Source: Platerodrilus igneus (taxonomy: Eukaryota > Arthropoda > Insecta > Coleoptera > Lycidae). Taken from it: DNA of 64,000 nucleotides. Below, piece after piece: positions 1-23,733 of this stretch. Made by a program: the position numbers and the translations under genes. The first letter of the stretch is position 1. Every line of letters begins with the position of its first letter. The DNA lies in the NCBI GenBank assembly GCA_036346225.1, contig JARFIW010000113.1, positions 25,361-89,360 of the forward strand. The letters run 5' to 3'. The notes below the pieces were generated by a model. That model had not been told where the DNA came from. It saw nothing but the letters and a program-made list of their open reading frames with translations, and ran no database searches.

Positions 1-600
1 CGAAAAGGAACATCATGGACTGTGAAAATATCAACGGCAGAGAAAATAAAAGCATTAGCTGTAAAAGAATCAACCGTACAGAGAGAAACACAATCAGTGA
101 ACACTTCATTTACGTTGGATAAAGGGGCAGAAGCAGATAAAATTTTATCGACTTTAGACAACGGAACAGAATCGAGTAGATCTTCAACAACATTAGATAA
201 AAAAAAGAATCAAACAGAATTTTTTCAACATGAAGTAAAAGAAATTCGTAACATTGGAAAAAGAAGTAAAAGCAATTATATCTTCATCGAGAGTAAATGG
301 AGGAACAGGAACTTCTTCAACAGTAGATAAAGGGACATCGGCTAGAACTTCCTCGACCTTAGATAAAAAGAACAGAAGCAAGTAGAATTTTGTCAGCATG
401 AGATAAAAAAGTACAATCAAGAATTTCGTCAATATTAGAGAAATGAGTAAGAGCAGGTAACGTTGGATCAAAGTCCGATAAAGAAGTAGAATCAAGTAAG
501 ACTTACTCTATGTTAGACAATAGAGTAGAAACAGGCAAAACTTCAGCCACAATAGGAACGGCATTCTCGACAACAGTAGCGACAGGCATTAACGATATCG
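1..600. repeat. 39-bp (13-codon) degenerate tandem repeat region, LTR-element internal part, copy A
   Basis: A motif of the form ttagataaa...agcaagtagaat recurs about every 39 bases, so both strands read as 13-residue periodic peptides. On the + strand the units look like S-T-L-D-K-G-T-E-A-S-R-I-S; on the - strand they look like L-S-N-V-D-E-I-L-x-D-S-V-P. The minus reading has fewer stops and continues into the 503-724 minus frame. The same region recurs at 40240-40850 and 45911-46500. It belongs to the internal part of the LTR element whose LTR follows at about 1185. I cannot assign a protein family. Coding status is unproven because the periodicity alone keeps several frames open. Confidence 0.6.
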
Positions 601-1184
601 GTTTATTAATATTGAAAGATCCGTACCCCTGAAACAGGGCCGTCATACACGTGAAATAGTCAGTAATGATTTTTGCTGAATCCTGCTGTCTATTGCAGAT
701 ATCATCAAACGGTCTTATTCCCACATCAGTTATTTTGTATACGAATAAAAGAAATAGTGGGAAATAACTAAATAGAAACTAGAAATAGAGCGCCAGCATT
801 TTAAAGGACTAGAATTATTGGCGAAAACACTAGTCCAGTAATTCGGAGAGAAACAAAAATTAAGGAAACTGCTATGTAATATAAAAAATACCAAGAAAAC
901 AAATTAATAAGATTTCAAAAGTAACGCCGAAAATCCAAAACTGGTTTCACGGAGGATATTGTCGGGACGAACGTTGAGTATAGGATATCAAGGACGAACG
1001 TAAAGAGAAAAGAATAAGCAGTATCAGGTCGACAAAAGCGGGTAATGTAGGAAATTAGGCAGTACAAAAAAAATCGGGCCTGAAGTAAAGCAAAATAAAA
1101 TCGGAGCAAAAGCTAAGCAAAACAAAATTGAGCCAAACGTTAAGCAACACACAACCGGGGCTCCACGTCAGGGCGTCAAAATTT

Positions 1185-4440: not shown

Positions 4441-5345
4441 TATGATAACTGTTAAGGTGTTTTAAAGTTTATGTTAAGGCGTGTTAAAGCAGCTTTTAGA
4501 GTTAACTTTTCAACATTCCTTATTTTCGCTACCTGCACCCTTCCATTCCTATATAGCGCAAGGTGCGGTATTGAACAGTGACAGTCACGAGAGTGTTGTT
4601 CAGACTTTTGGTTCGAACCGCAAGTGCACCCGTAATCAACAGAAGCGCGAATGCGGTGTTTTCATAGTGGGTGTGTGAAACAAAGCATTGCACATCATCA
4701 ATCAAACATCAATCATTCATTACAGTCCGCTATAAACATTTTGGAATGGTTCATGACATATGGTAATGTCATAGTAGCAGATAAGACAGTAAGTGCTAAT
4801 ATTAGTTTATTTACACGCTGTATATCGTACATTAATTGATCCTTCGTGCTCAGACCTTATCCTTCATGATGTTCAATTCTTGAAGTGTCTTTGCAATAAA
4901 TCCTAATCATTAATCGTATTTAATCCTCATTGTTTCATTACATTTTCGTGATTACCTTTGATAACTACTAATGTTTAGTGTAACTATAATTTTATTCATT
5001 CAGTCATAATTATATTCATTTAATTAAAGTTGAGGTATTTATTACAAAGCTTCAAAACGTTGGTATGTACAAAGATGCCCCTTGGATATAACGGAATATT
5101 GTAGAATAAATGCTAGTTTTATGTCCTATTTCGAAAGAATTCTTATGCAGGTAGCTTTTAAGGGTTGTGGTTTTAGAATTGCTTTGGCACCAGACACACA
5201 AATCACATCTGTTGCAAACATTTATATCCTGAGGTTTGAAAGCTTTTAAGAAAGTGAACATATTTTTACTGTTTGGTTTGGTTTTCAGGAAATTCTAGTC
5301 GGCAGATTTACAAGGTTTGGTTATTGGTATTTTAATTGAAGTCGT
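4440..5345 (+). promoter_or_regulatory. Candidate 5' LTR/leader region of the BEL/Pao element
   Basis: This ~0.9 kb lies immediately upstream of the BEL gag. It has a possible TATA element (ctatatagcgc, about 4549-4559) followed by a GC-richer transcribed-looking stretch. A consensus-like donor (ACAG|GTAAGTGC-type, around 4786) and a pyrimidine-rich acceptor (tttggttttcag, ending near 5289) could define a leader intron. No second copy of an LTR was found downstream of the truncated element, so LTR boundaries cannot be set. The duplicate is at about 50360-51263. Confidence 0.35.
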
Positions 5346-6135
5346 ATGACTCAATTTAGAATTTCTATGGATCGTCTAATATTAGACATGAAAGATGCTG
5401 TCAATAGGATTTCACAATTACTGGTCAGTACGGATAAATTGGAAAAGACTCGTGAAAATTTGGTTGCAATAAAATTGTTTACAAAAGCCGCCACGGATAT
5501 CATACAAGAAGCTGATATGTCTTATCATGCATGTATTTTCGATGAAGAAAATGCAGAAAGCATTCAGGAAATTGGATCGCTTCGTGTCGAATTGGATAAA
5601 ATTCTATTGTCGATTAAAATTTGTAATGCTCAGTTTGAAAGCATGTTTGAGTCATCGGACATTAAACCTCAACATTCATTTGAAAATAGGTCTGGATCGC
5701 CTACTGGTCTTAGTGGTGTTGCAAATATCAGATTGCCGCGTGTATCAATAAGTAAATTCACTGGAAAGTTTTGTGATTTTAACACTTATCATAGTATGTT
5801 TAAGAATTTAGTTTATGATAACCAGAATTTACTACCCATTGAAAAATATTTCTTCTTACTGGACTCTCTTGATTCAAATTCGAAAAATCTTATTCGTCAT
5901 TTGGCTGTCACAAATGAAAATTTTGAAACTGCTTATTCAATTATCGTTCAGCGTTACGAGTGTCGTCGTTTATTGGCAAAACATACCTTTCAGCGTTAGA
6001 AAATATTTCTAAAGCTCAATCTAACTCACATGTAGAATTAAGAGAATTACTGAATTGCTTTGTAGAAAATTTGGCTGGTTTGCGTCAAATGAAAATTGAT
6101 TTGTTGATTTGATTCTTTTCAATATGTTATCAAAA
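5346..6135 (+). pseudogene. BEL/Pao gag, N-terminal part (copy 1)
   Basis: The frame opens at ATG 5346 (MTQFRISMDRL) and reads 217 residues before a frameshift near 5985, where this copy has one A fewer than copy 2. The segment with the motif LPRVSISKFTGKFCDF, then a tract ending in a YECRRLLAK-type sequence, is typical of the BEL/Pao gag core that forms the particle. The frame shifts again near 6110 (TTGATTTGATTC), and that shift is shared with copy 2. The start is chosen because it is the first in-frame ATG after the candidate leader acceptor. Confidence 0.8.
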
Positions 6136-6136
6136 A

Positions 6137-6720
6137 TTGGAGGTCGATTTGCTTAAAACGTTCGAGTTGGAAAATATTCAGGATATTCCAACATTCGAAC
6201 AATTGAAATCGTTTGTTGAAAAGCACTGTAAGGCACTAGAAATCAGCAGTATGGTGCTAGCAGATAAACATCTCAAATCATCAAGTAAGAATGTGGACTG
6301 GGAAAAACGCCCTAATGCGGGTTCAAAATCACAATCTCATACGTCTTTAGTGACTACGTCAAAGATAAATAAATGCTTGTTGTGTGATGCGACACATTAT
6401 TTATATCAGTATAAAGTGTTTCTTGGGAGGTCACCCCAGGAACGTTATGCTTTTGTTAAAGGAAAAGGGTTGTGCATTAATTGTTGCATGGACTCACATC
6501 ATGCTAGAAATTGTAAATCAAAGAAGTTGTGCAAAAGGTGTTCAAAACCCCACAATACTTTGCTGCATTTTGGAAACTCAGCAGTACAGACTGAGGATGT
6601 CACTTCTTCTGTGTCTGTGGTTTCACCATCAACAGTTTTATCGTCTTCTTCAGCTCCTCAATTGGAAGCTAGCTACACTGCCAGTAGTAGTTTATTTTCG
6701 GCACGATTGTCAAATACGGT
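6137..6720 (+). pseudogene. BEL/Pao gag C-terminal zinc-knuckle region (copy 1)
   Basis: This continues gag after the shared frame change. Residues in the order C-L-L-C...H-x-L-Y, then C-x2-C...H-x4-C in CINCCMDSHHARNC, then C-x2-C...H in CKRCSKPHNTLLH form the Cys/His-rich array characteristic of BEL/Pao gag, which in the family binds RNA. A Ser/Thr-rich linker (about 6600-6700) leads into the protease without a stop, so gag and pol are fused here, as is common in this superfamily. Confidence 0.82.
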
Positions 6721-8119
6721 CACCTTGTTAGCTACGACTAAAGTATCCGTTTATGATGGGTTTGGAAGAGTTCAAACTGTAAGAGCTGTATTGGATAATG
6801 GCAGCATGGAGAGTTTCATGACTGACTTATGTCGTCAACGTTTGGCTTTGAATAAATCAAAAGTTTCAGTAAAGGTGGAAGGACTGGGACTATCGGCTGC
6901 TCAGGTTTCAGGTACATTGTCATGTAAAATTCGTCCTAGAAGACAAAGAAACCCTCAATATGATGTGGATGTTTTGTTCTCCCGGAGATTTGTGGAAAAT
7001 TACCTACGGTACAGTTACCATCAAATAATTGGTCGCATACGTCTGACTTAAACTTAGCTGACGAAGATTTTGATAAACCCGGCAAAATAGATATGTTGCT
7101 AGGGGCAAATATTTTCGCTCATATTTTGATGAATGAATCTCGTGTGGGTTCGTTGGATAAACCTGTCGCTATAAAGACAACATTGGGTTGGATACTGACA
7201 GGAAAACTTGTTTCTCCTGCTTCTTCATGCACCTCGTTATGTGCTATAGTGGAACCATTGGATTCTAATATACGTCGCTTTTGGGAACTAGAAAACATTC
7301 CAGACTCGTCGAGGGTGAGCTCGGCGGAAGAAGCGCGCGAAAGGCATTTTGTTGAGACTCGTGCTAGAGAGGAGGGTGGTCGTTTTGTGGTCCGGTTGCC
7401 GTTCAAAGGCCCAGAGCCTGTTTTGTCGATTCTCGGAGATCGCCATTCATAGATTTCTTTCATTGGAGCGACGTTTGGAAAAAGATTCTCATTTATATAA
7501 TTCATATCGTGAATTTATGCAAGATTACATTGAGAGTGGTCATATGACACTTTGTTCAAAATTGGGTCAAAAATCAATAGATGGTGTGTCAGAATACTAC
7601 ATACCTCATCATGCCGTTGTCAAACCAGAGAGCGCAACAACCAAACTCAGAGTGGTTTTTGATGCTTCGGCTTCTGCGCCTATTGGTGGTTTGTTAAATG
7701 AACATTTGTTAGTTGGTCCTCCGTTGCAGAAAGACATTATGGTTTTGTTGCTGCACTTTCGTCAACATGCTGTGGTATTCACTGCTGACATCAAACAGAT
7801 CTATAGGCAAGTTTTGGTTGCGCCAGATCATCGTCAATATAAAAAAATAATTTGGAGATTTAATTCTTCGGATCCTATCAGGGATTATCGGTTGAACACC
7901 GTCACTTATGGAATGACCTCGTCTCCATTTCTAGCATTGAGGGTCATTCAGGAATTAGCTCAAGTGGAGTCAGCCACATTTCCGCGTGCTGCTGAGGTGT
8001 TGGCATCAGATACTTACGTTGACGATGTTGTGAGTGGTTGTGCTTCTGTGGAGGAAGCAAAACGTTTAATTTTCGAATTAAGTCAAATTTGTGCAGCAGG
8101 AGGTTTTACGTTGCGTAAA
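6720..8119 (+). pseudogene. BEL/Pao protease and reverse transcriptase (copy 1)
   Basis: The protease carries AVLDNGSMESF near 6790. The usual Asp-Ser-Gly triad reads Asp-Asn-Gly, an unusual change present in both copies. A frameshift at about 6975 and another at about 7427 split the region. The reverse transcriptase follows with LRVVFDASASAPI (about 7650), FTADIKQIYRQV (about 7780), the catalytic YVDD at 8015-8026, and GGFTLRK. At the poly-A run near 7840 this copy keeps the frame (KKIIWRF) while copy 2 loses it. The segment ends at TAG 8119, where a Trp codon is expected after LRK. Confidence 0.85.
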
Positions 8120-8122
8120 TAG

Positions 8123-8830
8123 AACAGCAACGTCAGCAAGGTTCTTGAAGGATTACCAGAATCGTCTTGTTATCCGACAACTTCTAGTTTTGAAGATTCA
8201 AATAATTTGTCACAAAAGATTTTAGGTTTGCAGTGGAAACCCATAGGGGATTATTTCTTTTATCACGTTAATCCTATTTCAAAGGATTGTACGAAGCGCA
8301 GTATGGTGTCTGAAGTAGCCAGAATTTTCGATCCGTTGGGGCTACTTACTCCTTTAGTATTTTTTGCCAAACATTTAATCCAATATTTGTGGATATTGGG
8401 TTTGGATTGGGACGAAAGTCCTCCATTAAATATTGTATCAAAATGGAAAAATTATTTGGAACAATTGTCAGAATTATCGAAACTCGAGATCCCTCGATGG
8501 ATTTTATGTGTTGATTACAAAAGTATACAGGTTCACGGTTTCTGTGATGCTTCGGAAGCAGGCTATGCAGCCACTGTTTATTTTCGAGTCGTCGACACAG
8601 TTGGAAACATTAAAGCTTCATTGGTGTGTGCCAAATCTCCTACTAATCGCATTTCTTTGCCTCGTTTGGAGTTATGTGGTGCACTACTGTTATCAAATTT
8701 GGTAGATTTTGTTCGGACTACTTACAAAACACAATTGTCGTTCGATAGTATTTATGCCTGATGCGATTCAACCGTTGCACTCGCAATGGATAGAATTTTT
8801 GTCCAAGTTGTGGAAAACTTTAAAATTACA
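8123..8830 (+). pseudogene. BEL/Pao connection domain and truncated RNase H (copy 1)
   Basis: After the TAG stop the frame continues with ILGLQWKP, then the ARIFDPLGLLTPL motif and the RNase H start VHGFCDASEAGYAA (about 8530-8575), then SLPRLELCGALLL. These are conserved BEL/Pao landmarks. A TGA at about 8759 replaces the Trp of the expected W-x-DST motif (CDSTVAL follows). Similarity ends within about 70 bases, so the C-terminal RNase H and the integrase are absent. The neighbour is the converging Gypsy element. Confidence 0.8.
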
Positions 8831-8971
8831 GTATGAAATGCATGTCTTTTTTATGAAATGTACACTTACATTTTCTGGATTCGACATATACATTTACTAC
8901 GATGGTCATGTGCAACTGGTTGTTTTATAGTTCATTTAGTTATAAATATGTAACTTTTGTTTTAATTAGAT

Positions 8972-9235
8972 TGTTATAGAATTTCTACTTTTGGTTAATT
9001 ATGCAGAGGGTGGCTTCAGTTAAGGTGATATAGAGCCAAACAGTGTTACCAAAAAGAGTTATATAAGCACGCGGACTAGTCTCGGGGTCTATTCCTACGG
9101 AGGCATGAGATGGGGAGGTCTTTTATTAATTAACTTGTCTTTATAAAATTTTAGGGCGCCACTACGTCACAGACATAAACACCAAAAATAATCTCGTTAA
9201 GGAAAGACGTAGATAAACCTTAAGAGAATCAACTT
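8972..9235 (-). repeat. Gypsy 3' LTR (copy 1)
   Basis: 264 bases closely matching 24772-25034, and 54895-55159 in the second copy. On the minus strand the repeat starts around AGTTGATTCTC (a TG start is possible at TGATTC) and ends ...TATAACA. It contains the shared stretch with tatataagcacgcgg-type sequence and a cgtcttt tract. The integrase reading frame runs straight into it after ...RRRDISFKV, leaving no separate 3' untranslated segment. Confidence 0.85.
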
Positions 9236-10160
9236 TAAAAGATATGTCTCGTCTTCTCAAATTATATTGTTTACTGGAACGTTCATAAGCTAAACGTAAT
9301 TTTGCACAAACATCTTTAAATATTTTAAGTAGACCTAAACGATCTGAAACATACGAAGGACGACTATCAGGAACGACTTCAATATCTCCTTCAGGAGTAA
9401 CATCATCACCAAAAAATTTACCACTGACTGGAACATGCCTTCCGAAAACTACAAAAATTTGGAGAATAAGTCGTAGACTCATGCTTGGCGAAGTTCATTG
9501 CATATTGGATCCGTGGCAGCTTAAGATCCCACTAGTCATGCTCGTCAACATATGAACGGATAGCGGTACCAACAGTTCTATTGAACCTTTCTACGAAATT
9601 ACACTGGGGAGAATACACAGCAGTATACCAAATCTTTTGAACTTCATATTTGTCACACAGAGATTTGAAATTTTTCCCAGACAACTGAGGACCATTGTCA
9701 CAAATAATAAATTGCCGAACTCCATAAGTAAGAAAAACTTTTTTCTAAGAAACGTACAATGAAATGCGCTTTGGCATTTCTGAAGGGTTGCAATATGGTG
9801 AATTTCGAAAACCAATCTCCTACAACAAGCAACCATTTATGTCCTGCCTTGGAACGAGGGAATGGACTCATAAGATCTAGAGCAATAGTCTGAAAAGGGA
9901 ACCTCACTGGTTTCTCCTTTCCCATCATACCCATAGGACCCAAATTAGAAGATTTTTGCGCACCACATGTTAGACACTTGCAACAGAATCTCAACACATC
10001 TATGTTCATTTTAGGCCAGTAGTAATGTTCTTGTATTCGTGCCATAGTCTTTGAAAACCAAAATGGCCTGCTATAGCCAGGTCATGACATGAACGAATCA
10101 CTTCCTCCCGCTGTGACCTAGGGACGAGATGCTTCCATTCCACAATATTAGACGAAAGAG
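9236..10160 (-). pseudogene. Gypsy integrase (copy 1)
   Basis: Minus-strand fragments show the zinc-binding part (…CCKCLTCG at about 9955-9985), the first catalytic Asp in IALDLMSPFPRS (about 9880), the second Asp in a CDNGPQLSG motif (about 9690) and the Glu in a FVERFNRT motif (about 9580): a D,D-35-E core. At the first motif this copy has Ser where copy 2 has Gly. The frame breaks near 9730 and 10045. The C-terminal tail ends at YNLRRRDISFKV, where the LTR begins, so the expected GPY/F-type tail is missing. Confidence 0.82.
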
Positions 10161-10723
10161 GTAAATTAGAAGGTAAAATTTAAATACAAAATCATTTTCG
10201 ACTTTCCACTGTGGATAGTCTTCAGGCTTCAACAAAGTTTTTTCACGCAATGAGAGATACCATGGATCTAAATTATCTAAACTAACTTGAACTAAATTAA
10301 CAGTATCTTTTCCTACAGGAAGTGCTCTACTCAAACAATCTGGAACAACATTGAACTCCCCCTTTCTATGTACTAAATCAAAAGTGTGTTGCCTCAAACG
10401 AACATCCCACCTAGCTAATTTTCCAGTTGGGTTTTGGATATTATTCAACCACAGTAGCAAAAAGTGATTGGTGACGACAGTGAACCGGGCACCTTCTACC
10501 CAGGGACAAAATTTTTCTATGGCAAAATCACTGCGAGACACTCCTTCTCGGTAATTGAGTAGTTACGTTCAGTACGGCTAAGAGATTTACTTGCGTATGA
10601 GATTACACGCTCTTCATCACCAATTTTCTGAATAAGAACAGCACCTAAACCAGTATGACTAGCGTCACACTCTACTATAAACGGAACAGAATAATCACGC
10701 TGCGACAATAAAGGAGTAGACAC
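10161..10723 (-). pseudogene. Gypsy RNase H (copy 1)
   Basis: The sequence starts with SVPFIVECDASHTGLGAVL (catalytic Asp, about 10660) and continues with ISYASKSLSRTERNYSITEKECLAV (catalytic Glu, about 10550) and the TNHFLLLWL segment. This is the standard Gypsy RNase H that removes the RNA template. One base is missing near 10525 relative to copy 2, breaking one frame into two. Downstream VPDCLSRALP marks the RNase H/integrase junction. Confidence 0.85.
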
Positions 10724-11709
10724 TAAAGCTTGCTTAATTTGAACAAATGATGATTCGCTTCTGGGCTCCAGTTAATAACTTGGCCCTTCTTTTTCTTCTT
10801 AATTAAATCGTTTATAGGCGAAACTAAGGCAGAAAATTTTTTTATGAATCTATGATACCAGCTGCACATGCCGATGAAACGTTTTATCTCAGTCGTTGTT
10901 TTTGGACGAGGAAAATTAACCATGGCTAAAACCTTTTCTGGATCTGTTCTAAGAGAATTAGAACCTACTATATAACCTAAAAATTTCAAGTATTTTTAAA
11001 AATTCACATTTCTCTAAATTTATGGTGAGATTAGCATTCTTAAGACGTTCTTTACTTCACTCAATAACTCAACATGTTCTTCAAAAGACGACGAACAAAG
11101 GATGATATCATCCAGGTAGCAAAATACATTAGGCTCAAATTGAGGACCAAAAAATTGCGTCAATCAGACGTTGTTGCGTTTGCGCGCTATTTCTCAGCCC
11201 AAACGGTACAGTAACAAATTTATATTGACCTTTAGAGATGACGCTAAAACCAGTTTTTTCTTGAGCACTTTTGGAAAGAGGGATTTGCCAAAAAAAATCT
11301 TCCTCAGGTCCACGCTAGATATAAAATTTGCATTACGTAACGAATTAAGTATTCTAACTATGTTTGCCATCGGATAACTATCATGTTTCGTAATATCATT
11401 CAACATTCTCCCATCAAAACAAAGTCTATACTCGCCAGAAGATTTCTTTACTAGGAGCACTGGAGAATTCCAGGGGCTCTGGCACGGGTCAACTACTCCC
11501 AAACGTAACATCTCGTCTAACTCATCATTTAAAATTTTACTCATGTAAGGCGACATGACATAAGGCTTCCTTCTAATTGGTTTTGCATCGCCTGTATCAA
11601 TATCCATTACTATTTTATCCGTTGTACCCAATTTATCTACACTACTGATTTCCTTAAAGGAACTTACAACACGTTGGGCTTCTACTTTTCTGAGCATCTT
11701 AAAGGTCAT
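10724..11709 (-). pseudogene. Gypsy reverse transcriptase (copy 1)
   Basis: The frame starts near 11709 (MTFKMLRKVEAQ) and carries PIRRKPYVMSP, LDEMLRLGVVDPCQSPWNSPVLL and SGEYRLCFDGRMLN, then ISSVDLRK. After a break near 11300 comes the catalytic YLDDIIL (about 11100-11122), then FLGYIVG and the TEIKRFIGMCSWYHRFI connection motif. All are usual Gypsy RT landmarks. A second frame break around 11000 (short A run) is absent from copy 2. Confidence 0.86.
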
Positions 11710-12297
11710 CTAAGTCAAGCAAATAATCTTTACATTTTAACGGCACTGAAGATTGTCCTATATACGACAATTGATTCCCTATTTTTCCTGTACATACCAA
11801 GAATTATTCTTAAAATCAGCTATAAGTCCAAACAAATTTGCAAAATCGCTTCCAAAAATACATGCATGAGGTAAAGAAGGGACTACTAAAGCATTAAGGA
11901 CACGGCACTGGGTTTCTATACAGACTGGCAAATCAACTACTCCTAACACAGGCTTTAAAGCTCCATCCGCAGTAGATACTCCTTTTTTATCGAACCTAAA
12001 TATCTTCACCTTGAGCTCTTCTATTAAGGAGATGGCAAGGGATCCAACTATCGATGTAGTGCATCCAGAATCCAACAGACCAGTGATGTCTCTATCAAAT
12101 AACTTAACTATGATATATGGACGATTATCAGAGGGCTTCTCCACAAACAAAGAATCAGTTTTTGGAGCATCGGACTTACAACAGAATTGTTTAACTACTT
12201 TAAGCCAATCATACCATTCTTCCTTACAAAAATATTCTTTCTGGTTACACAACATAACTGTAGCCTTTTGAAATGAGGCAGGATGTCGGCCACGCAA
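11710..12297 (-). pseudogene. Gypsy aspartic protease (copy 1)
   Basis: A 172-residue minus frame contains ITGLLDSGCTTSIVG with the intact Asp-Ser-Gly catalytic triad (about 12050-12085), followed by GLIADFKNNSWYV as in retropepsin-like proteases of Gypsy pol. Its start overlaps the gag stop at 12309-12311 in another frame, so pol would need a frameshift or it reflects decay. The frame ends near 11779 at a C-run difference from copy 2, where it continues about 28 residues further. Confidence 0.8.
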
Positions 12298-12308
12298 AAT
12301 CTGCTTCC

Positions 12309-12894
12309 TTACTCGTTTTTTGAGCAGGATGGACAGGAATTTAATGTGACACCTTTATGACCACAACAATAACAAAAGATTCTCTTATTACCCCTACAAC
12401 TTGCAAACATATGACCAAGACGGGAACAGTTCCAACAGGTAGGACTTTTTTTTTAATGAATTTTGAGGATTAACCGATACAGGACTAGAAATATTTTTGT
12501 CTAAAACTTGGACTTGTGGAGACGTCTTATTTTTATACTCTTGGCCTGTAGATGCCGAAAAATTACAACTCAGTACTGGACGTTTATAAACATATCGTGG
12601 CTTGGGATGAAAATTACTTTTATTCAAAACATTTTATTAGAATTATTTGACATTGCTGATAGTGATTTTTGTTTTAACAAGAAGGCCTCCTTAAGCTTCT
12701 TACACAATTTTCTCAAAGTAGATATGCTATCTATTTCAAACAATGCTAGTTGTGAAATTAAATCTGGCAATAAATTTTTTCTTATAATCCTAACCTTTGT
12801 AGTCTCTACTGGTGCTTGTGGTAATCTACAAAACAAACTCTCCATATGAGCAATAAATAATACCACCGGCTGATCCTTCTGCTGTCTACTTGAT
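12309..12894 (-). pseudogene. Gypsy gag, C-terminal part with zinc knuckles (copy 1)
   Basis: This is the portion of gag downstream of the long-TIR insertion. On the minus strand it reads VVLFIAHMESLFCRLP, then a basic linker, then a CCHC knuckle CWNCSRLGHMFASC and a second knuckle CYCCGHKGVTLNSCPSC (C-x2-C-x9-C-x2-C, about 12325-12430). It ends at a TAA at 12309-12311. Frames are broken by T and A runs near 12380, 12450 and 12620. The upstream half of the gene lies at 23734-24512. Confidence 0.82.
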
Positions 12895-12900
12895 TTTATA
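12895..12900. repeat. 6-bp target-site duplication, left (TTTATA)
   Basis: TTTATA directly precedes the left end of the long-TIR element. The same six bases follow the right end at 23728-23733. Removing the element and one copy restores an uninterrupted Gypsy gag frame across the site. Confidence 0.88.
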
Positions 12901-13189
12901 AGTAGAGTATAATTGGGGCATCCACCGCCTCATTTCCCCCAGAATCCCTCATTTCCCCACACATCTGGACCAATTTACATGTAAATTCCCATAAGGGGGA
13001 AATGAGGAGAATCCCTCATTTCCCACACATCTGGACCAAAAGTTTTCTTCGACTAACCATTTTCATCTTTCGAGATAAATGAGCATCCACATTTCCTCCC
13101 ACATCTGAACCAAATAGTTTTCTTTGTCTAGCCATTGCATCTTTCGAGATAAACCTATCTTGTTATGGTATCAATTAACATTAGATGTT

Positions 13190-13510
13190 TCTCAGCTACC
13201 CGAATCTTTAAGAATCGTCTTTAAATCATCCATCACCCAAAGCTGAGCTACCCTGATTTGCTAAGATTTCTTACCTGTAGCGACTTTTGAGCGTTCATTA
13301 TAAATTTTTCTCAGCTACAACCGAATTTCTAAGATTTTTAAGATATCATCACCGCCATAGGCAGCTACCCTGATTTTAAGATTGTCTTAACCTGTAGCAC
13401 TCGACTTTTGAGCGTTCGTTATAAATGACTTTTCTCAGCTACGCCGAATACTCTAGGAATTTGTCAGATTGCATCATCCTACAAGCAGAGCTACCCCAAC
13501 TTTTACCAGA
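13190..13510. repeat. Subterminal tandem repeats in the left TIR (~100-110 bp, about 3 copies)
   Basis: The unit carries ttctcagctac, then an ctaagat/ttaagat tract, a gatatcatc motif, gctaccctgatttt, and cctgtagcgacttttgagcgttc. Repeats begin near 13190, 13310 and 13432 and the last is degenerate. They mirror 23160-23450. Subterminal tandem repeats like these are common transposase or replication-protein binding sites, but no binding is shown here. Confidence 0.8.
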
Positions 13511-14164
13511 TTTTGCTACTATAGCATCAATTTCTAACGTCACCTCTCCTTTTTAATATCTAGCAATCCTTTAACCAAACACGTAAGCAGTATTAACGAT
13601 AAATTAAGCATGCGACAAGATTTATTTTATCACAATTTACAGTTTAAATAATACGTCAATTACAATTTTACAAATGTATAACATTATTTCCGGTAGTGTA
13701 ACCCGAATCCAACTAGTTTAACCTGTAACAAAAATTAATTGTGCATTGTTTAAATAGACTATAACAACAAGAGATTAATGTAAATCATCAAGAGGAAACG
13801 TGTTTTCGCAAGTTAATAAGACATATTATCGTTAACCTAACAATAGTGCTTTTACCGTCCAGCGACACCACGTGACGGTAATACACATTCAATGTAATGG
13901 GTTTTAAAGTAGCGAAAGTACGCTAAATGCTAGTCAATTAACCAGCAATTAAATATTGCTTACTGACCTACCTTAATTAGGTTGCTGTACTATTAGGAAT
14001 GATGTTTAAGACCTCGTACGTATTTTCCGGATTATATGTTGTATTCTTTTTATTAAGTAATCGAATAAATCGTTCTTTCTGCTTCCAAAGAAACTCGGCA
14101 CTCCAATCGTCGAACCTGGCGTTCTTTATGCGATAGCTACCATACGGTTGTTAAACCTGTACTA

Positions 14165-14560
14165 ACCATTTCTACACCATCGTCGCTAGTAGCGGTAACT
14201 GTGCATTTTATGTCTGTTGCTTCTAAGTGTGCGGCATATGTATTCTTTCCATTTCGAAATCGCATACTTTACACATAATTCGTGGTTGTTTCGTACAAGA
14301 CCCTTTAACAGCTGGCGGAGCTGAACGTTTAACAATGACATACCGTGCTGTTTTCCTTGTGTCGTAAGTTGTCCATTCTCGTAAAGCGAAACCGCAAGTC
14401 CCACAGTTTAAGTACTTTGCTGCGGACGGCAACCGTGGACGATGTTACACCCGACATTTGTTCTGGTCCGTTTGAGAGCATTTTCCAGGTATTTTAGCCC
14501 CGATCGCAAAAACGTTTGCAGGTACCATTTTAGTACAAAACAAAATCCGCACTATAAGAC
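14165..14560 (-). pseudogene. Degenerate C2H2-type zinc-finger gene in the left TIR
   Basis: Minus-strand counterpart of 22163-22720. Readable parts are YLNCGTCGFAL (about 14380-14415), the helix end preserved in a neighbouring frame as LRHKENSTVC, and CKVCDFEMERIHMPH followed by LRSNRHKMH (about 14205-14270). The frame breaks several times with single-base gains or losses relative to the right arm. It faces outward, toward the left end of the element. Confidence 0.6.
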
Positions 14561-14739
14561 TTGACTTGTAAGCGAACTAACTTATAACTAAAAGTTTACT
14601 CCAGCGTACCTGCTTTATGTTCCTTATAGAATGCAAACCGAAGGTTTCCGAAGACCACCGAAGGAAGTTGAGGATTCACCGGGGAACTAAATGACGTCAT
14701 AATCCTCGCGCTCGTCCAATACATTTAGCCCAATGATGC

Positions 14740-14910
14740 CCTGGTTCGCTTTGTCCATGGCTGCGAATGCCGTTAGTAAACACCGAAAACGTCTTCCATG
14801 TTATACGGATCGCTGCATATTAAAAATCCAAAAGGGTGGTAGCACACGCACACAAATTGGTGCAAGTCGTGCTGTAGAAGATGCAGTGCTACTATAACCA
14901 AAAACACTTT
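14740..14910 (+). pseudogene. Cys-rich frame in the left TIR, mirror of 21776-21958
   Basis: This inverted copy of the Cys-rich frame in the right arm lies back-to-back with the zinc-finger gene and has extra single bases that break its frame. Conserved bases cover the segment encoding Lys-Asn-Pro-Lys-Gly...Thr-Arg-Thr-Gln and the Cys-x2-Cys pair. See the right-arm entry for what can be said about the protein. Confidence 0.45.
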
Positions 14911-16440
14911 AAACCATTACTAAGAAAATACCAACTTGTTGTCTACAGGATACTTACAACAATTTAATTTTAAATAACTTCTACGTCATATTTTAGGTGG
15001 GCTTGAATATTTTCCAAATGAATCACCAAGCGAAAGTATATGCTAGCAGTATTAAATTAACCATTAATTTCCCATTTTACGACCATGGTTAATTATAGAT
15101 TAAAATTTAATTTGTGCACGTTCGAGCTTCTCGTAAACTAACATATTTTATAGCAACAATGCGTGTATAATACATGCATACCCTCTCTGCGCTACTGCTA
15201 TTCTTGTAATTGCTAGAAAAGTCACTCTCCTTTTACTGTTAGGATGAAGCACCATTTTTATCTTCTATAGACGCACTTTTCGAAATAGCTTCTGTAAGGC
15301 TTTACATTCGCATAGCGTCGGCCCAGAATGATTTCTAGAACCGGTAATACTCGATACGTCCAAATAATTCAGATGACTCGTCGTCAACTTCCATTCCGAA
15401 GGTAGCAACCGCAGTTCCATTAAACTTCGACCCGCCGTTCTGATAATTTACAAACATTTCAACGACAAGGGAGATTTTACCCAGGCTAACGTCGGCGTCA
15501 ATTACACATCCCCGAAACTAATTTGATATTTTGCAGCAACGATTAACATGTACTCTCTCCGTACTTATTCTTAGTTCTTGGAAAGTCAGTCCCTTTTACT
15601 GCTAGGGCCGTAAAAGCAGCCGATTCCATTTTTTAGTGTTCCATTCGGCCTTTTTCAACACTCAATTAAATCTTTTATGTCCTTACACTTTCGCTTATTA
15701 CACACAACGATTGAGTTCCATTCATTTTTCAGGAAGCACCATACGCACCGTTCTTTTACAACGATCCTATGGGCTTCCACGCACTAACCCTTAGCACGTT
15801 CTTCTTCATTGTTAAACAAAAACTACCCGCATTGTGGACGTAAACAATGCTTTGTGGATTACAAAATTGTAACATATACATTAACCAGCTAACTTTTTTT
15901 GTCCACGAAAACTACTATTTTCTAAACCACAATAAAGTCGTCTTTCATGGTCACTTTCCATTCCCAATGCTGGGCAACTACATGATTTATTTTTGAATTC
16001 TTACTCCCGCACTGACATGGAATCATGCCTTCCTTGAGTATTCTCGTTATAGGTTGAACCCTCGGTTTTACTTAACTCGAACGTGAACTTTTGAACATTT
16101 ATGATGTTCTCGTCTATAGCTAGCATTCTACCAACAAATTATCGGACCCCAAATACACTTAACTTTTTACAACTTTTTGTTGACAATTATATTGTTTTAC
16201 GCGGCACTCACTCTTTAAGAAAATATTTGCTAGGTATCAACTAATATCAAATTTTCGGGACCCAATCTGTAAAGTTTCAAAGGACCACCCATACAAGTTA
16301 CGTTTTAAGCCACATAATTTTTCTCATCTTTTTTAACACCATCTTTAAACTTTTGCACAAGCATGATGCCTAGCCAACCTCTCCGAGAAATCTAAAACCG
16401 CAGTTCCGCAACACGGATACACGTATCGTCACCAGGACAG

Positions 16441-16860
16441 AGAGGATGCAAGCGGACAGACAATTATCACATGACACACAACAATACAACATGACCACAT
16501 ATTACACCACATGACCGACATGTCGACATATTCGCAGAGACCTTTGTCATCTCACCAAACATTTTACACATGAAGGTTACAGGTATCCAGCGCCGGCCCA
16601 ACCATAAATTTTCCTTTATCTAACCTAGGTCCACACTTGTTTTTAATGGAAAACTCATTAAAAGCAATTAGGTTAATGGGTTTTAATGAGAAAACTCATT
16701 AAAAGCAATTAGGTCATATGGTCATGCGGTCATGTTCATGGTCATGGCCGTCATGCGGTCATATGGTCATGTGGTCATTGGTCATGGTCATACTGGTCAT
16801 GTGGTCTGTGGTCATGTGGTCATATGGCCCTTCATGTGGTCTATGTCGTGGTCAGTGGTT
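16441..16860. repeat. CATGACC / GGTCATGTG degenerate arrays in opposite orientation
   Basis: From about 16465 to 16545 the + strand carries several ACATGACC-type words. From about 16714 to 16860 it carries more than ten GGTCAT(A/G)TG or GGTCATGCGG words, the reverse complement of the first set. Between them, at 16640-16715, a ~40-bp unit (aaactcattaaaagcaatta...) occurs twice in tandem. The opposed arrays could fold into an imperfect hairpin at the left edge of the core. Unit spacing is irregular and there are no unique spacers. Confidence 0.8.
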
Positions 16861-16884
16861 ATGTGAGCAGGAGATTAATTTGAT

Positions 16885-19423
16885 ATGAGGAACCTAATTA
16901 TCGACATGTGTGATGGCAATGATATCGGATAACAACAGTTCCTAAACCAATTAATCAAGATATGGCGGTGTCCGACATATTCGACTATTTTCGGTAATAT
17001 ACGCCCCACTCTGTAGATACATAAGGAACAATTTTTCGTATTCAATTTAGTATTTGACGGTAGCTAGAACGGTAAACATGCGTCCAAGGTGATTAACGTT
17101 TCTCAACTTCTTGGGAATAAAGTGAAACCGACAAATGAGCTGATTTGGATTATGGCTGTTGACAGAAAATATGTGCAACAATAATCTGGTGACAGATATT
17201 GGTAATATTTGTTATGTCGAAGGCGAAAAGATGCTGACTGGACTACACACCAATTACAGAACCATTTTGTGACAATATAATGTTGGTTAAATTTGCGACC
17301 TTTCTGACACCGACAGCATCTGCAAACAAACGGATGTTTATCCTAAAAAGAAATTTGTGGTCATTTAACAGCTATCTACGAAGAAAGTTCAACGATTTGT
17401 TTCGCTAGGCATGGTGTTAAAGCTAAGCTTCCGTTTTCTCTGGAAAGCATAACAAGATAGGCCAGAGAGTAAAAGAAATTATCGGAAAAGAAGACATCGA
17501 ATGCATTAATAAAAATTCCAAAATCCTATATGTGTTCCATACAAAGTGGAACTAGCAGATGTTAAGTTGGAAACTTTATTGAGGAACTACCAGATATATT
17601 AGACGAAGTCGAAAAGATTATTTCTATCTTTTGACATGGATGTAACCCAAGATTTTGCAGGCATATTTAGCAAGATGGAGATGTGTAATTATTTAACTAC
17701 AAACCATAACTTTTGCTATAAGGGCGAATACGAAGAAAAGTGTAATATTATAGTTGACAACGATAAAACTGTGGATTGATTGTTTAACATGGCTAACAAC
17801 CAATGCAAGAATTAAGATTTACAACAAATTTGTGTGCCAGATAACAAGTCCTGGTGTTAATAAACAACTTGGCAATCATATACTAGATTTTTACGTTGTC
17901 CAGATGTACGTTTAAGGAAACATTTGCGTCTACTTTGGCCAAAGAACATGGTATTACGCGATTGAAGCGACAATATACAACTGTGCAATTGGAAGCTATG
18001 TCAGTGCGGAACGGGTGTATAAACCCTTAAAAGACTGTTTAACCTTATTGGAAGATAGTGTTATACCTCCTAAAGGCGCCAATGTACTCGGTACCACTTA
18101 CCAAAATGTGGAGTAAGCTATCGGACAAGCTACAAAATAGCTGCTGTTTAGTGTATAATAACCTGCTACAGTACGTGTATTGGGGAATGGCAATACAAAG
18201 AAATTGACGGGCTTGCAAATTAAGTTGTCCAAAACCAGAGGAAAAGGAAAATTGATAAAGTATGTGCTGGCTTTAGTTTTAACTATTTACCTGTAAATTA
18301 TTTGGAGATAGTAGAGGAAGATGTCCAAGATAAAATAAAAATCTTACACAAGTGCTACATTAAAGCAGGTAGTACATATTTTACACAATCTGCACACCAT
18401 ATTCTACAATTCCAAAAGAAATAGTAATTTCGGACTTGGGATTGATAGATACGCCTAACATTCGTCCAGAGGTTGTACGACAACGCGTAAATATTGGTAG
18501 TAAACTCTATCCGTTTACGCTAAAGGAAATTGCCCCATTATGTATACCATACGCTGTAAGTGGAAGGAAAAGACAACTGGAATTAGAGGAAATGGATGCA
18601 AAAAGGCGAAAATTGGACTACATGGAAAACACTGCGACAATACGCGATCAATACAAAGATGTGTTAGACAAAGAACATCTTATTAGAGAAAATGAGGAAG
18701 AATTAAAAGATTATTTTATGTGCCGAAGGACTGACTTAGATACATCTGGTTTCTACAAGTTGTATGCATTTGCGGTTAGTAAGAAAGACTCTTTTAGTTA
18801 TGTAGGCGTTCTTGCAGAAAAGGATGGTACTAAATCCGTATACTTTTTAAAAGGTTATTCTAAAAACGTATTTATCAAAATGGCAGATAACAAAGACGAA
18901 CTAAGGAATGCGGGTTTCGTAATCTTTGCGTACACCACACGTAAAGGGGGTCCGTTAAACATTGTATATTTGCCTAGTAAAGAACCTTTCGGATCATTTA
19001 AAACCGAGGGTCTTACAACCTATAACAACCATATATTCCCAAAAGTGGTGGATATGCAACTACACAACGGTGTGTGGAGAAAAAGGATTTCTCCAATACC
19101 GACAAGAAGAAGTCGATCAAGCTAACAAGATACGTATGCAGGATATAGTAGGAAAGCTGCGATTAAAAGATTGTCACAAGCTGCAAGAATTACACGAAGG
19201 AATGGATCTAGTTGTCGGCGGAATCAAAGACTTTAAATATAGAGGCAAACTTCGGTACATTTTACAATTCGAAAACCTAGACGGTCTCTATGTATCAAAC
19301 TATTGGTTAGAAAAGGAGATAGAGGACTTGGGTATCGATTTAAATTTTAAGCTGCGAATAAAATTAGATAAAATTAAAGCCACTCCAAACAAACATAAAG
19401 AAAGGACTGTCTTCTGTGTATAA
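16885..19423 (+). pseudogene. Core gene of the long-TIR element, unknown function, frame-broken
   Basis: Traces of coding in all three + frames line up in order. They include VINVSQLLGNKVKPTNELIW (about 17085-17150), FDMDVTQDFAGIFSKMEMC (about 17630), [20 protein letters not shown] (about 17800-17860) and FASTLAKEHGITRL (about 17920-17960), then one long open stretch at 18436-19125. That stretch has PNIRPEVVRQRVNIGSKLYP, a basic GRKRQLELEEMDAKRRKLDY segment that looks like a bipartite nuclear signal inside a helical, probably coiled-coil region, and a charged tract. A last frame (to 19423) ends in SNYWLEKEIEDLGIDLNF and TPNKHKERTVFCV. The gene has at least five frame breaks and no family I can name. 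It is a good candidate for the element's replication or mobility protein, by position only. Confidence 0.6.
18436..19125 (+). CDS. Longest intact frame of the core gene (C-terminal half), unknown protein
   Basis: 229 residues open without interruption, but ATG 18436 is probably internal to a longer protein, because the upstream frame carries the in-frame-looking text IPKEIVISDLG directly before it. Residues 40-75 are Lys/Arg/Glu-rich, with KRQLELEEMDAKRRK fitting a bipartite nuclear signal. Residues 95-180 look globular, with alternating hydrophobics (FYKLYAFAVSKKDSFSYVG and FVIFAYTTRKGG). The C-terminus RKRISPIPTRRSRSS results from a frameshift near 19085. The natural continuation is the overlapping frame 18962-19423. 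The region recurs in degraded form at 20350-20530 in the right arm. Confidence 0.55.
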   Translation: MGLIDTPNIRPEVVRQRVNIGSKLYPFTLKEIAPLCIPYAVSGRKRQLELEEMDAKRRKLDYMENTATIRDQYKDVLDKEHLIRENEEELKDYFMCRRTDLDTSGFYKLYAFAVSKKDSFSYVGVLAEKDGTKSVYFLKGYSKNVFIKMADNKDELRNAGFVIFAYTTRKGGPLNIVYLPSKEPFGSFKTEGLTTYNNHIFPKVVDMQLHNGVWRKRISPIPTRRSRSS

Positions 19424-19500
19424 CTTTGTATTAAAATTAAGTTTAAATGACCCCATGCTTGGCTATTAAATATTTTTAAATTTGTTATGTATAATGTCAG

Positions 19501-19506
19501 AATAAA
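19501..19506 (+). promoter_or_regulatory. Candidate polyadenylation signal AATAAA of the core gene
   Basis: AATAAA sits 78 bases after the last stop codon (19421-19423) in AT-rich sequence, a plausible 3' end for the + strand core gene. Such hexamers are frequent in AT-rich DNA, so position is the main support. Confidence 0.4.
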
Positions 19507-19559
19507 CATTTTATAATAGTATATAACATTGTTCTTTATTTATAAAAGGCTGTGACGTT

Positions 19560-19695
19560 ACCACGAAATAGCAGTCGCACAGAGAGGGGCGCATGGGCAG
19601 CGCGCATGGGCAGGTGCGTACGCGCAGGGTGCGCATGGGCGGGGGTTGCATGCAGGGGTGCTCATGGGCTGGGATGTGTCTGGGCGTACACGAGG
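19560..19695. repeat. GC-rich GCGCATGGGC-type repeats
   Basis: An island of high GC in an AT-rich element, made of five or six degenerate (g/t)GC(g/t)CATGGGC(a/g)G units. It sits between the core gene's 3' end and the right arm, opposite the CATGACC arrays at the left edge of the core. No gene was recognised in it. The short frame through it is repeat-encoded and ignored. Confidence 0.7.
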
Positions 19696-21775
19696 GAAGC
19701 GGATGTTAACAGTCACCAAGCATCCAATTCTTTATTTGGATGGTATCGAGTACTTGTCTGCGTATGTATCCGGAGTAAAAATACGATTTGCATACGCAGC
19801 TTATTAATAAAATTAGTTTATCGAGGAAGATGACAAAAGGTACATCATTCCTAATAGTACAACAATCTACGCATGGGGGCGTAAAGATATAAGATAGTTG
19901 TTTATATTTGTATATATTAGTTTTAAGATTCCATAATTTTAAGTTCTCGCCCACCTTCCAAATCCTTCCTCGCTTCTATCCTGGTTGACAGAGTATACGT
20001 GTTATCTCCACGTTGTGTTAGCGGAACACTGCGGTTTTAGATTTCGGAAGATGGTTGGCTAAGGCATATGTCTTGGGTAGCGAAAAAAGGTTTTAAAATG
20101 GTGTTAAATAAAGATGAGCAAAATTAGTGATTTGGGTCTTTAAAACGCATAACTTTGTATGGGTGGTCCTATTTAAAATCTATTTACAGATTTGGGGTCC
20201 CTAGAAAATTTAATATTAGTTGATACCTAGCAAAATATATTTATCTTAAAAGAGTGACTACCCGTATAATAAATACAATATAACACTTGTCAACAAAAAG
20301 TTGTAGGAAAATTAAAGACGTATTTAATGGGGGTCCAGTATTAGAATTTGTTGGTAGTAATGTTAAGTCCTACTGTATTGTAGGCGAGAAAGATACGATT
20401 AAAAGATTAAAGGTGGTCTCACGAATTGTAGTTAAGTAAAACCGAGGGTCTTACAACCTATAACGAGCATATACTCAAAAGGAATGGACATGCAACTACG
20501 CAGCAGTGCGCGGGAGAATAAGAATTCTCCAATAAGAAATTAAAGTTTCCATGTACGTAGCATCAGCCATTGGGTAATGGTCGAAATGTGGAACCTATAA
20601 AGACGATTATTAATTGTGGTTTAGAAAATAGTAGTTTTCGTGGACTAAATAAAATAGCTTAGACTGGTTAATGTATATGGTTACATATTCTCGTACACAT
20701 CCACAAACATCTGTTTACGTCCACAATGGCGATACCGGTAGTTTTTGTTTAACAAATAGTAAGAAAATACGTCAGGTGTTAGTGCGTGAAGCCCATAGGA
20801 TCGTTGGATTCAAAAAGAACGGTGCGTATGGTGGTCTCCGTTAGAATAATCGAAAGTGGTTAATCAATCGTATTAGATGTTTAAATAAGCGAAAGTGTAA
20901 ATGCCTACATAAACAAAGATTTAATTATCCGACAAATGTACGCGATGTGCTACACTTATAAAGAAAGTATGGAATGGTGCTTTTAGCGGCCCTAGCAGTA
21001 AAAGGGCGACTGACTTTTCCAAGCAACTACAAGAATAGCAGTAGCGCAGAGAAGGGGTATGCATGTATTATACAGTTGCTCAAAATATGTTAGTTTACGC
21101 GTAGCTCGGATGTGTAATTGATCACGACTTAAAGATCCTCGGAGGTTTAAAAATTCTCGGCCCATTGTCGTTTGAAAATGTTTGTAAATTATCAGAACAG
21201 GAGCGGGTCGAAGTTTAATGGATGATTGACTGAGTTTTTCTACCTTTACGAGGAATTGGAAGTTGACAGACATCGAGCATCTAATTTCTATTTGGACGAT
21301 ATCGAGTACTTACCGGTTCTAGAAATCATTACATGCGGCCGACCGCTATGCGAAAGTGTAAAAGCCTACAGAAGCATAATTATCAGACGAAAAGTGCGCG
21401 ATGTGCTATAGAAAGTATACAAAAATGGTGCTTTGCCCAGTCCTAACAGTAAAAAGGAGAGTGACTTTTCTAGCAATTACAAGAATAGCAGTAGCGCAGA
21501 GAAGGGGTATGCATGTATTATACAACGCATTGTTGCTATAAAATATGTTAGTTTACGAGAAGCTCGAACGTGCACAAATTAAATTTTAATCTATAATTAA
21601 CCATGGTCGTAAAATGGGAAATTAATGGTTAATTTAATACTGCTACATATACTTTCGCTTGGTGATTCATTTGGAAAATATTCAAGCCCACCTAAAATAT
21701 GACGTAGAAGTTATTTAAAATTAAATTGTTGTAAGTATCCTGTAGACAACAAGTTGGTATTTTCTTAGTAATGGT

Positions 21776-21958
21776 TTAAAGTGTTTTGGTTATAGTAGCA
21801 CTGCATCTTCTACAGCACGACTTGCACACAATTTGTGTGCGTGTGCTACCACCCTTTGGATTTTTAATATGCATGCGATCCGTATAACATGGAAGACGTT
21901 TTCCGGTGTTTCTACTAACTGCATTCGCAGCATGGACAAAGCGAACCGGTGCATACAT
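21776..21958 (-). pseudogene. Cys-rich frame in the right TIR
   Basis: The 60-residue minus frame contains RLPCYTDRMHIKNPKGGSTR, then TQIVCKSCCRRC, then a stop. The pattern C...K-x-G...R-T-Q-x-x-C-x2-C loosely recalls the C-terminal cysteine-rich domain seen in piggyBac transposases. No DDD core is present, and a 6-bp TTTATA duplication is not the TTAA expected of piggyBac. Upstream text in other frames may extend it. Its mirror is 14740-14910. It may equally be a fragment of an unrelated zinc-binding protein. Confidence 0.4.
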
Positions 21959-22162
21959 TGGCGCTAAATGTATTGGACGAGCTGCGAGGATTATGACGTC
22001 ATTTAGTTCCCCGGTGAATCCTCAACTTCGTTCGGTGGTCTTCGAAACCTTCGGTTTGCATTCTATAAGGAACATAAAGCAGGTACGCTGAGTAAACTTT
22101 TAGTTATAAGTTAGTTCGCTTACAAGTCAAGTCTTATAGTGCGGATTTTGTTTTGTACTAAA

Positions 22163-22720
22163 ATGGTACCTGCAAACGTTTTTAAGTGCGATCGGGGCCC
22201 AAAATACCTGGAAAATGCTCTCAAACGGCACCAGAACAAATGTCGTGGTGTAACATCGTCCACGGTTAAGCCGTCCGCAGCAAAGTACTTAAACTGTGGG
22301 ACTTGCGGTTTCGCTTTTACGAGAATGGACAACTTACGCGACACAAGGAAAACAGCACGGTATGTCATTAAGCCTTAAACGTTCAGCTCCGCCAGCTGTT
22401 AAAGGGTCTTGTACGAAACAACCACGAATTATGTGTAAAGTATGCGATTTCGAAATGGAAAAGTACATATGCCGCACACTTGAGAAGCAACAGACATAAA
22501 ATGCATCAGTTACCGCTACTAGCGACGATGGTGTAGAAATGGTTAGTACAGCGTTTAACAACTGTATGGCTAGCTATCGCATAAAGAACGCCAGTCTCGA
22601 CGATTGGAGTGCCCGAGTTTCTTTGGAAGCAGAAAGAACGATTTATTCGATTACTTAATAAAAAAGAATACAACATATAATCCGGAAAATACGTACGAGG
22701 TCTTAAACATCATTCCTAAT
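22163..22720 (+). pseudogene. Zinc-finger protein fragment in the right TIR
   Basis: ATG 22163 opens MVPANVFKCDRG, with LENALKRHQNKC completing a first C2HC-like finger (one Cys position is blurred by a frame error). A second finger reads YLNCGTCGFAFTRMDNL with the His helix shifted by one missing base near 22337. A third, CKVCDFEMEKY, precedes a His-containing helix. An acidic, Trp-containing tail follows across frames (VEMVSTAFNN at about 22535; a D-D-W-S segment near 22603). N-terminal C2H2 arrays followed by such a tail also occur at the start of some arthropod Polinton-type PolB proteins. I could not confirm that here, and no polymerase domain follows within the element. Confidence 0.55.
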
Positions 22721-23159
22721 AGTACAGCAACCTAATTAAGGTAGGTCAGTAAGCAATATTTAATTGCTGTTAATTGACTAGCATTTAGCGTACTTTCCTA
22801 TGTAAAACCCATTACATTGAATGTGTTTACCTCCACGTGGTGTCGCTGGACGGTAAAACATATTGTTAGGTTTACGATAATATGTCTTATTAACCGAAAA
22901 CACGTTTCCTCTTTTTACATTAATCTCTTTTGTTATAGCTCTATTTAAACAACACATTAATCTTTTTGTTACAGGTTAAACTAGTTGGATTCGGGTACAC
23001 ACCGGAAATAATGTTATACTTTGTAAAATTGTAATTAGTTTATTAAACTGTAATTGATAAAATAAATTTTCGCATGCTTAATTTATGTTAATACTGCACG
23101 TGTTTGGTTAAAGGATTGTAGATATTAAAAAGGAGAGGTGATTAGAAATTGATCTTAGT

Positions 23160-23450
23160 ACAAAATCTTAAAATTGGGGTAGCTCCTTAGGGATGATGCA
23201 ATCTGAAAAATTCCTAGAGATTCGGGTAGCTGAGAAAATTTATAAGAACGCTCAAAAGTCACTACAGGTAAGAAATCTTAAAATCAGGGTAGCTGCCTTG
23301 GCGGTGATGATATCTTAAAAATCTTAGAAATTGGGTAGCTGAGAAAAATTTATAAGAACGCTCAAAAGTCGCTACAGGTAAGAAATCTTAAAATCAGGGT
23401 AGCTCCTGGGGTGATGATATCTAAAAATTTTAAAGATTCGGGTAGCTGAG
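23160..23450. repeat. Subterminal tandem repeats in the right TIR (~108 bp)
   Basis: Units begin gggtagctgagaaaa and contain gaacgctcaaaagtc, ctacaggtaagaaatc and gatgatatct. Clear copies run at about 23225-23332 and 23333-23440, with a degraded one at 23160-23224. They mirror 13190-13510. Confidence 0.85.
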
Positions 23451-23727
23451 AAAATCTAATGTTAATTGATACCAAACAAGATAGGTTTATCTCGAAAGAT
23501 GCAATGGCTAGACAAAAAACTATTTGGTTCAGATGTGGAGGAAATGTGATGCTCATTTATCTCGAAAGATGAAAATGGTTAGTCGAAGAAAACTTTTGGT
23601 CCAGATGTGTGGGAAATGAGGATTCTCATTTCCCTTATGGGAATTTACATGTAAATTGGTCCAGATGTGTGGGAAATGAGGGATTCTGGGGGAAATGAGG
23701 CGGTGGATGCCCCAATTATACTCTACT

Positions 23728-23733
23728 TTTATA
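23728..23733. repeat. 6-bp target-site duplication, right (TTTATA)
   Basis: Identical to 12895-12900 and directly abuts the ACTCTACT end of the element. On the minus strand it falls in the Gypsy gag codons for ...EDIK. Confidence 0.88.

Follow-up and report, generated by a model that had tools for sequence, protein, structure and literature searches.

The question raised by this locus is what kind of mobile element occupies positions 12901 to 23727 of the stretch analysed here, a window of 64,000 nucleotides from the lycid beetle Platerodrilus igneus (assembly GCA_036346225.1, contig JARFIW010000113.1, positions 25,361 to 89,360). Inspection of the window sequence revealed an exact TTTATA duplication at both flanks of the 10.8-kb element, which starts with AGTAGAGTATAATTG and ends with TTATACTCTACT (terminal sequences AGTAGAGT / ACTCTACT), exactly as delimited by a first-pass annotation made from the letters alone. 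That annotation had left open whether the element was a Polinton-like derivative that had exchanged its genes but kept the integration chemistry, or else belonged to an undescribed family with long terminal inverted repeats (TIRs). Target-site duplications (TSDs) of 6 bp, AGT-type ends and a relic of the PolB N-terminus support the former, while the palindrome of about 14 kb that characterizes the whole family and the resemblance of its core gene to Rep_trans initiators go beyond what the earlier reading showed.

The element belongs to a repeat family in the 2.71-Gb genome. Searches with a 1-kb core piece (40 scored matches of 3783 candidates, 97–100% identity), with the terminal 258 bp (40 scored of 3885 candidates) and with the related protein P0002 (59 scored of 27,673 candidates) gave numbers that are lower bounds or loose candidates and not copy numbers. 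Among the 18 copies for which both ends were read, 17 carried an exact 6-bp TSD, namely the window copy (TTTATA), C835 (AGAAGT), C1307 (GTGTAG), C1146 (TTCGGT), C427 (GGTAGC), C412 (CTTACT), C237 (GGTACG), C1088 (TATAAT), C772 (AAATTT), C1658 (GTCCTG), C991 (TGTAGT), C1166 (GATTCC), C260 (GAGCTT), C1048 (CGCAAT), C215 (GATGGT), C929b (GTAGTG) and C1644 (AATACG), and the remaining copy, C1055, matched at five of six positions (ATAGAC/ATACAC); this count omits the first copy on C929 as well as C782 and C1667, in which the end-motif scan located one end only. The termini read AGTAG[A/G]GT in all 18; both the TSD length and the ends seen in the window hold across the family, and copy lengths range from 10 to 16 kb. 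At the C1088 locus (L027/L028), one palindromic element is nested in another copy of the same family, its TATAAT duplication lying inside core sequence.

Comparison of ten further copies fetched from the genome revealed that the family is a head-to-head palindrome of about 14 kb, each half measuring about 7.1 kb. The order arm, reversed core, centre, core, reversed arm was found in nine of the ten, with the core whole or partial, whereas C782 showed one half only. Left and right stretches align over 5.2–7.4 kb in C835, C412, C237, C1667 and C1088; alignments are shorter in C1307, C1146, C427 and C929, partly as the fetched pieces cut them. These data also revise the view of a separate 3.5-kb core put forward for the window: a core of about 3.6 kb is indeed present, but it is not a middle piece of its own, and a model with the core as a central piece distinct from the arms was rejected, as it lies in both arms of nine of the ten other copies.

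The centre itself is a short palindrome, AATAGGTTAGGCCAGCGCC followed by GGCGCTGGCCTAACCTATT with a spacer of 0–2 nt. It is perfect in C1307, C427 and C1667, carries one mismatch in C1146 and C1088, and is cut short in C929; in the other four of the ten fetched copies (C835, C412, C237 and C782) it was not found. A genome-wide search with the 19-nt half-site returned 122 forward and 147 reverse matches (reversed control: 0 and 0), and by manual count 44 of 100 among the matches listed were opposed pairs 1–2 nt apart. The inner halves usually end unequally, as in C427, where they reach window coordinate 18231 on one side and 16587 on the other. In C237, C782 and C1667 the middle is occupied by sequence resembling hAT, BEL/Pao or LINE elements (LINE and BEL/Pao recognized by eye from frames), which we read as later insertions; the hAT-like transposon of C237 (L024:3-1791; DUF4371, Dimer_Tnp_hAT) lies near the palindrome centre.

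Within a copy, the two arms differ by only 0.19–0.49% substitutions (mean 0.28%, 7 copies), in contrast to 1.78–6.65% between copies (mean 4.48%, 21 pairs), a difference of about 16-fold on average for the arm segment in these seven copies. The core behaves likewise, with 0.19% within and 1.20% between copies. This set comprises seven of the ten fetched copies; C929, C782 and C1667 were left out because an arm was incomplete in the stretch fetched or, for C1667, matched the window only as separate fragments. Because arms differ by 0.28% within and by 4.5% between copies, the second arm seems to be regenerated by copying the first.

At the level of sequence, the ends, the TSD length and a relic of the PolB N-terminus tie the family to Mavericks. 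Vertebrate Mavericks are described with 6-bp TSDs and end motifs of the type (AG)3 or (AGT)2, including (AGT)2/(ACT)2 ends (PMC8097293), to which the AGTAG[A/G]GT termini of the family are close. A C2H2 zinc-finger frame within the C237 arm shares 55% identity (E 1e-32) with the N-terminal part of a Maverick PolB encoded in this genome, and the relic ends where that protein continues with RGSSYIELP. Closer to the core, C526 contains short pieces resembling the PolB C-terminus (63 aa at 71% and 38 aa at 58%). In this copy (L071) they precede the N-terminal relic, the reverse of the gene order, which suggests a past rearrangement or a circular intermediate. PolB is abundant in this genome: of 6269 candidates, 87 were scored and gave 115 matches. 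Among these 87, the closest lies 57 kb from one of the 59 core-protein matches, 77 kb from one of the 40 terminal matches and 280 kb from one of the 40 core matches. Profile searches with 44 frames (≥50 aa) of one half of the C1088 copy returned only two weak zinc-finger matches in Pfam. For PolB, rve integrase, ATPase, protease and capsid there was no match at E ≤ 0.01, although a domain could escape notice where indels break the frame, nor was any DDE transposase, P-type or other, detected in these frames; the lack of the Maverick genes in this copy-half is consistent with the swapped gene set proposed at the outset. A 226-aa arm frame had no firm homologue in the protein collection. We rejected the notion of a merely shrunken Maverick, since no PolB domain was found in the copy-half scanned and another gene is present.

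This other gene encodes a protein of about 785 aa, for which 27 homologues were retrieved at E ≤ 0.1 using the C237 reading and 53 at E ≤ 0.01 using a profile. They include proteins from Cacopsylla, Planococcus, Cinara, Laodelphax, Aphis glycines and Schistocerca americana, and a distant relative in Mytilus coruscus (24% identity over 48%). By manual count, 20 of the 59 scored genomic copies are stop-free. Within the genome, 77 nonsynonymous and 31 synonymous changes give a ratio of 0.78 to the neutral expectation, indicating only weak constraint, which would fit a family whose copies are mostly inactive from the moment they insert; a better indication of selection is that the protein is conserved between several insects and a mussel. 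The relative from Aphis glycines (P0047) carries a precomputed match to PF13843, a piggyBac-type DDE domain, which may reflect an additional way of being mobilised or a gene model that is chimeric.

Sequence-based searches with the core protein were largely silent: the C237 reading had no match in Pfam, searches of Pfam, PHROGs and PDB sequences yielded nothing firm (matches were weak and scattered, the top one being to a single-member Pfam entry at E 8e-4), and no firm relatives were found in the viral_contigs and genome_contigs collections. Structural comparison was performed with models of the related proteins P0002 and P0023 in place of the broken gene of the window. The model of the N-terminal domain (predicted local distance difference test score 89.5) retrieved the Rep_trans structures 4cwe and 4cij at ranks 1 and 2 of a PDB fold search, with marginal scores. 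The full-length model gave baculovirus LEF-3 first in Foldseek (E 2.3e-3), its C-terminal part showing weak OB-like matches, while no match in a viral fold library reached E 1e-3, the top rows being uncharacterised proteins and LEF-3.

Conservation was then counted over alignment rows with a letter at the respective position (37 rows in all): D69 is conserved in 35 of 36, D193 in 36 of 37, Y254 in 34 of 35, K256 in 33 of 35, and R301 and E303 each in 31 of 32. The tyrosine of the Y-x-K pair (Y254, K256) matches the Rep_trans catalytic motif as given in PMC4797284 and PMC5714925, and the D, D, E triad follows the Rep_trans strand order on the model, a correspondence by order and spacing. The RxD of Rep_trans motif I, motif II and the glutamate of YxKxxE are unmatched, the motif I position reading D-x-D. 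The PF02486 profile matched none of 21 core-protein homologues and hhalign was not significant; the comparison set consisted of ten inoviral Rep proteins, one assigned to PF02486 by hmmscan and nine by tblastn similarity to that one and annotation. From the modelled fold and these residues, the core protein may be a Rep_trans-like DNA-nicking replication enzyme.

Seen against the family, the window copy is complete in its right half (7.1 kb) but lacks the core gene on the left, and its centre, at about 16587–16603, is degenerate. The core gene, open in other copies (about 804 aa), is frameshifted here. The features of the window copy are as follows, with the strand where assigned:

12895–12900: left TSD, TTTATA
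12901–23727: whole element, palindromic Maverick-like copy, 10.8 kb
12901–16414, plus strand: left arm, indel-rich, poor sequence
13017–13153: subterminal tandem repeats, 74-bp unit
14189–14444, minus strand: C2H2 / putative PolB N-terminal relic, left-arm copy, broken frames (PolB homology via the C237 copy)
16415–16586: short remnant of the left inner half, left core-gene copy missing (sequence inspected directly)
16587–16603: what is left of the central palindrome, degenerate here and intact in other copies (matched by eye)
16712–16827: GGTCAT-rich tandem repeats adjoining the centre
17078–19423, plus strand: core gene, protein of about 785 aa with a Rep_trans-like N-terminal domain and a possible OB-fold C-terminus (start codon by eye)
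20015–23727, minus strand: right arm
22115–22496, plus strand: C2H2 zinc-finger / putative Maverick PolB N-terminal relic, broken frames (PolB homology via the C237 copy)
23163–23454: subterminal tandem repeats, 110-bp unit
23486–23631: subterminal tandem repeats, 72-bp unit
23728–23733: right TSD, TTTATA

C772, 10.9 kb long and flanked by a TSD of its own, is a second copy of this design, its centre lying about 3.6 kb from one end; C526 appears to be another, with a different centre and a stop-free core-protein frame.

The inverted arms of about 3.5–3.8 kb described for the window are borne out by the pairing of 12897–16414 with 23731–20015 at 85.7% identity (132 mismatches and 417 gap positions in 3826 columns). 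This identity is low because the differences are mostly indels: substitutions amount to 5.0%, with 67 gap openings per kb compared to 8–13 per kb in the arms of seven other copies, where we took the small indels as long-read consensus error. The gap density, together with a contig (C113) of only 89 kb that holds a 12.8-kb repeat of 99.4% identity, points to poor sequencing of the left arm. This repeat, in which window positions 1–12777 recur at 45911–58703, carries BEL/Pao and other retroelement frames, stops about 120 bp short of the element and represents either a true duplication or an unresolved haplotype; BEL/Pao frames lie at 5340–8761 and 51258–54683 (DUF1759, Peptidase_A17, RVT_1 below cut-off). 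The insertion had further been placed in a Gypsy gag gene whose frame is restored on excision. Joining the flanks with a single TSD does leave a 362-aa minus-strand frame open across the insertion site, but its identity as gag is a candidate assignment; the host retroelement is plausibly Gypsy because neighbouring frames weakly match the retroelement domains Asp_protease_2 and RT_RNaseH, both under the Pfam cut-offs.

Taken together, we consider it somewhat probable that the family is a satellite integrated in the Maverick manner, which has the head-to-head palindrome as its normal form and replicates through a hairpin with a Rep_trans-like nickase, a mechanism that we infer. Each half of about 7.1 kb comprises a terminus, subterminal repeats, the Maverick PolB N-terminal relic, a single putative replication gene and one side of the central cruciform. 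The core protein would nick at this cruciform, its OB-like C-terminal part would bind and protect single strands, and copying of one half via a hairpin intermediate would remake the other half, after which resident Mavericks would provide, in trans, the integrase that inserts the resulting DNA. Deletions next to the centre would then remove some of one inner half from a copy, as happened in the window copy. That such forms can arise is supported by adeno-associated virus (AAV), for which symmetric and asymmetric head-to-head snap-back genomes are described (PMC8235507).

Maverick-like integration itself is already known. A bolder proposal, which we advance tentatively, is that of a new class of eukaryotic mobile element, whose nicking initiator would be the first of the Rep_trans type outside bacteria and archaea and whose genome would be an obligatory palindrome, in which the cruciform would be nicked and one half recopied in every round with a borrowed Maverick integrase acting in trans. 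If so, the occurrence of related genes in Hemiptera, in a grasshopper and in a mussel would mark an old and widespread satellite lineage of Mavericks, a relation that would mirror virus-satellite systems within animal genomes, and the giant palindrome would be a heritable transposon form whose arms date an insertion much like long terminal repeats do. In 2026 the Rep_trans superfamily was reported from bacteria and, as a new addition, from archaea (PMC13107129), and a Rep_trans-like nickase in this family would extend it to animals. Searches of an open-access library yielded no earlier description of the combination of inherited giant palindrome, Rep_trans-like gene and animal host, which is not proof that none is in print.

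The strongest alternative, though unlikely in our view, is a palindromic non-autonomous derivative of Mavericks that is moved and replicated wholly by their enzymes, with protein-primed PolB acting in trans, the palindrome going back to one snap-back event in which a displaced strand folded onto itself, and the core gene being a passenger with a single-strand-binding or regulatory role. The Maverick ends, TSD and PolB relic, the snap-back genomes of AAV in both forms (PMC8235507) and the first rank of LEF-3, a single-stranded DNA-binding protein, in Foldseek (E 2.3e-3) all suit this alternative, whereas the Tyr-x-Lys pair and the acidic triad conserved in Rep_trans order do not, and PolB terminal priming does not in itself need a tyrosine nickase. 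We regard as improbable an ordinary long-TIR transposon in which gene conversion between the palindrome arms, with no special replication, accounts for their likeness. Conversion can keep palindrome arms near-identical, and the inner breakpoints vary between copies; this reading has to contend, however, with the roughly 16-fold average gap between within-copy and between-copy divergence, with Maverick-like ends and with the lack of a DDE transposase in the copy-half scanned. An assembly artefact, in which fold-back long reads create false palindromes or the contig is duplicated, would suit the indel-rich left arm and the 12.8 kb recurring at 99.4% some 46 kb away in an 89-kb contig, but is scarcely credible and already contradicted for the family by a fixed centre at many loci on other contigs, by left and right flanks that differ from each other and by the 6-bp TSDs that 17 of the 18 copies carry, so that a false palindrome was rejected.

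The satellite proposed here can be compared with several known systems. With Mavericks/Polintons it shares the 6-bp TSD, the AGT-type ends, the PolB N-terminal relic and an overlapping length of 10–16 kb; it differs in its Rep_trans-like gene, in the lack of a PolB domain, integrase, ATPase, protease or capsid in the copy-half scanned, and in arms of 3.6–7 kb, compared to TIRs of 46–1,447 bp reported for vertebrate Mavericks (PMC8097293). The core protein resembles Rep_trans (PF02486) initiators, including the archaeal Rep-Arvir group, in Y-x-K on a strand, D/D/E order and R-x-E, and possibly in the TBP-like fold suggested by its model. In contrast to these, it occurs in animal genomes without significant sequence similarity, lacks the motif I arginine and motif II, and continues into a C-terminal part whose matches to OB folds are weak. 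Helitrons also use a rolling-circle-type initiator, in some cases with a single-stranded DNA-binding part, but combine an HUH Rep with a helicase and have neither TIRs nor TSDs, both of which are present here. Very long and internally repetitive inverted arms are shared with Foldback/Galileo, of which Galileo is classed with the P-element (PMC3573991), whereas the 6-bp TSD, the Maverick-like ends and the absence of a transposase in the frames scanned set the family apart. A structural parallel to the palindrome is found in the snap-back defective genomes of AAV, likewise head-to-head palindromes derived from one end and symmetric or asymmetric around the turn (PMC8235507); unlike these, the palindrome described here is inherited by a whole repeat family and its centre is common to many copies.

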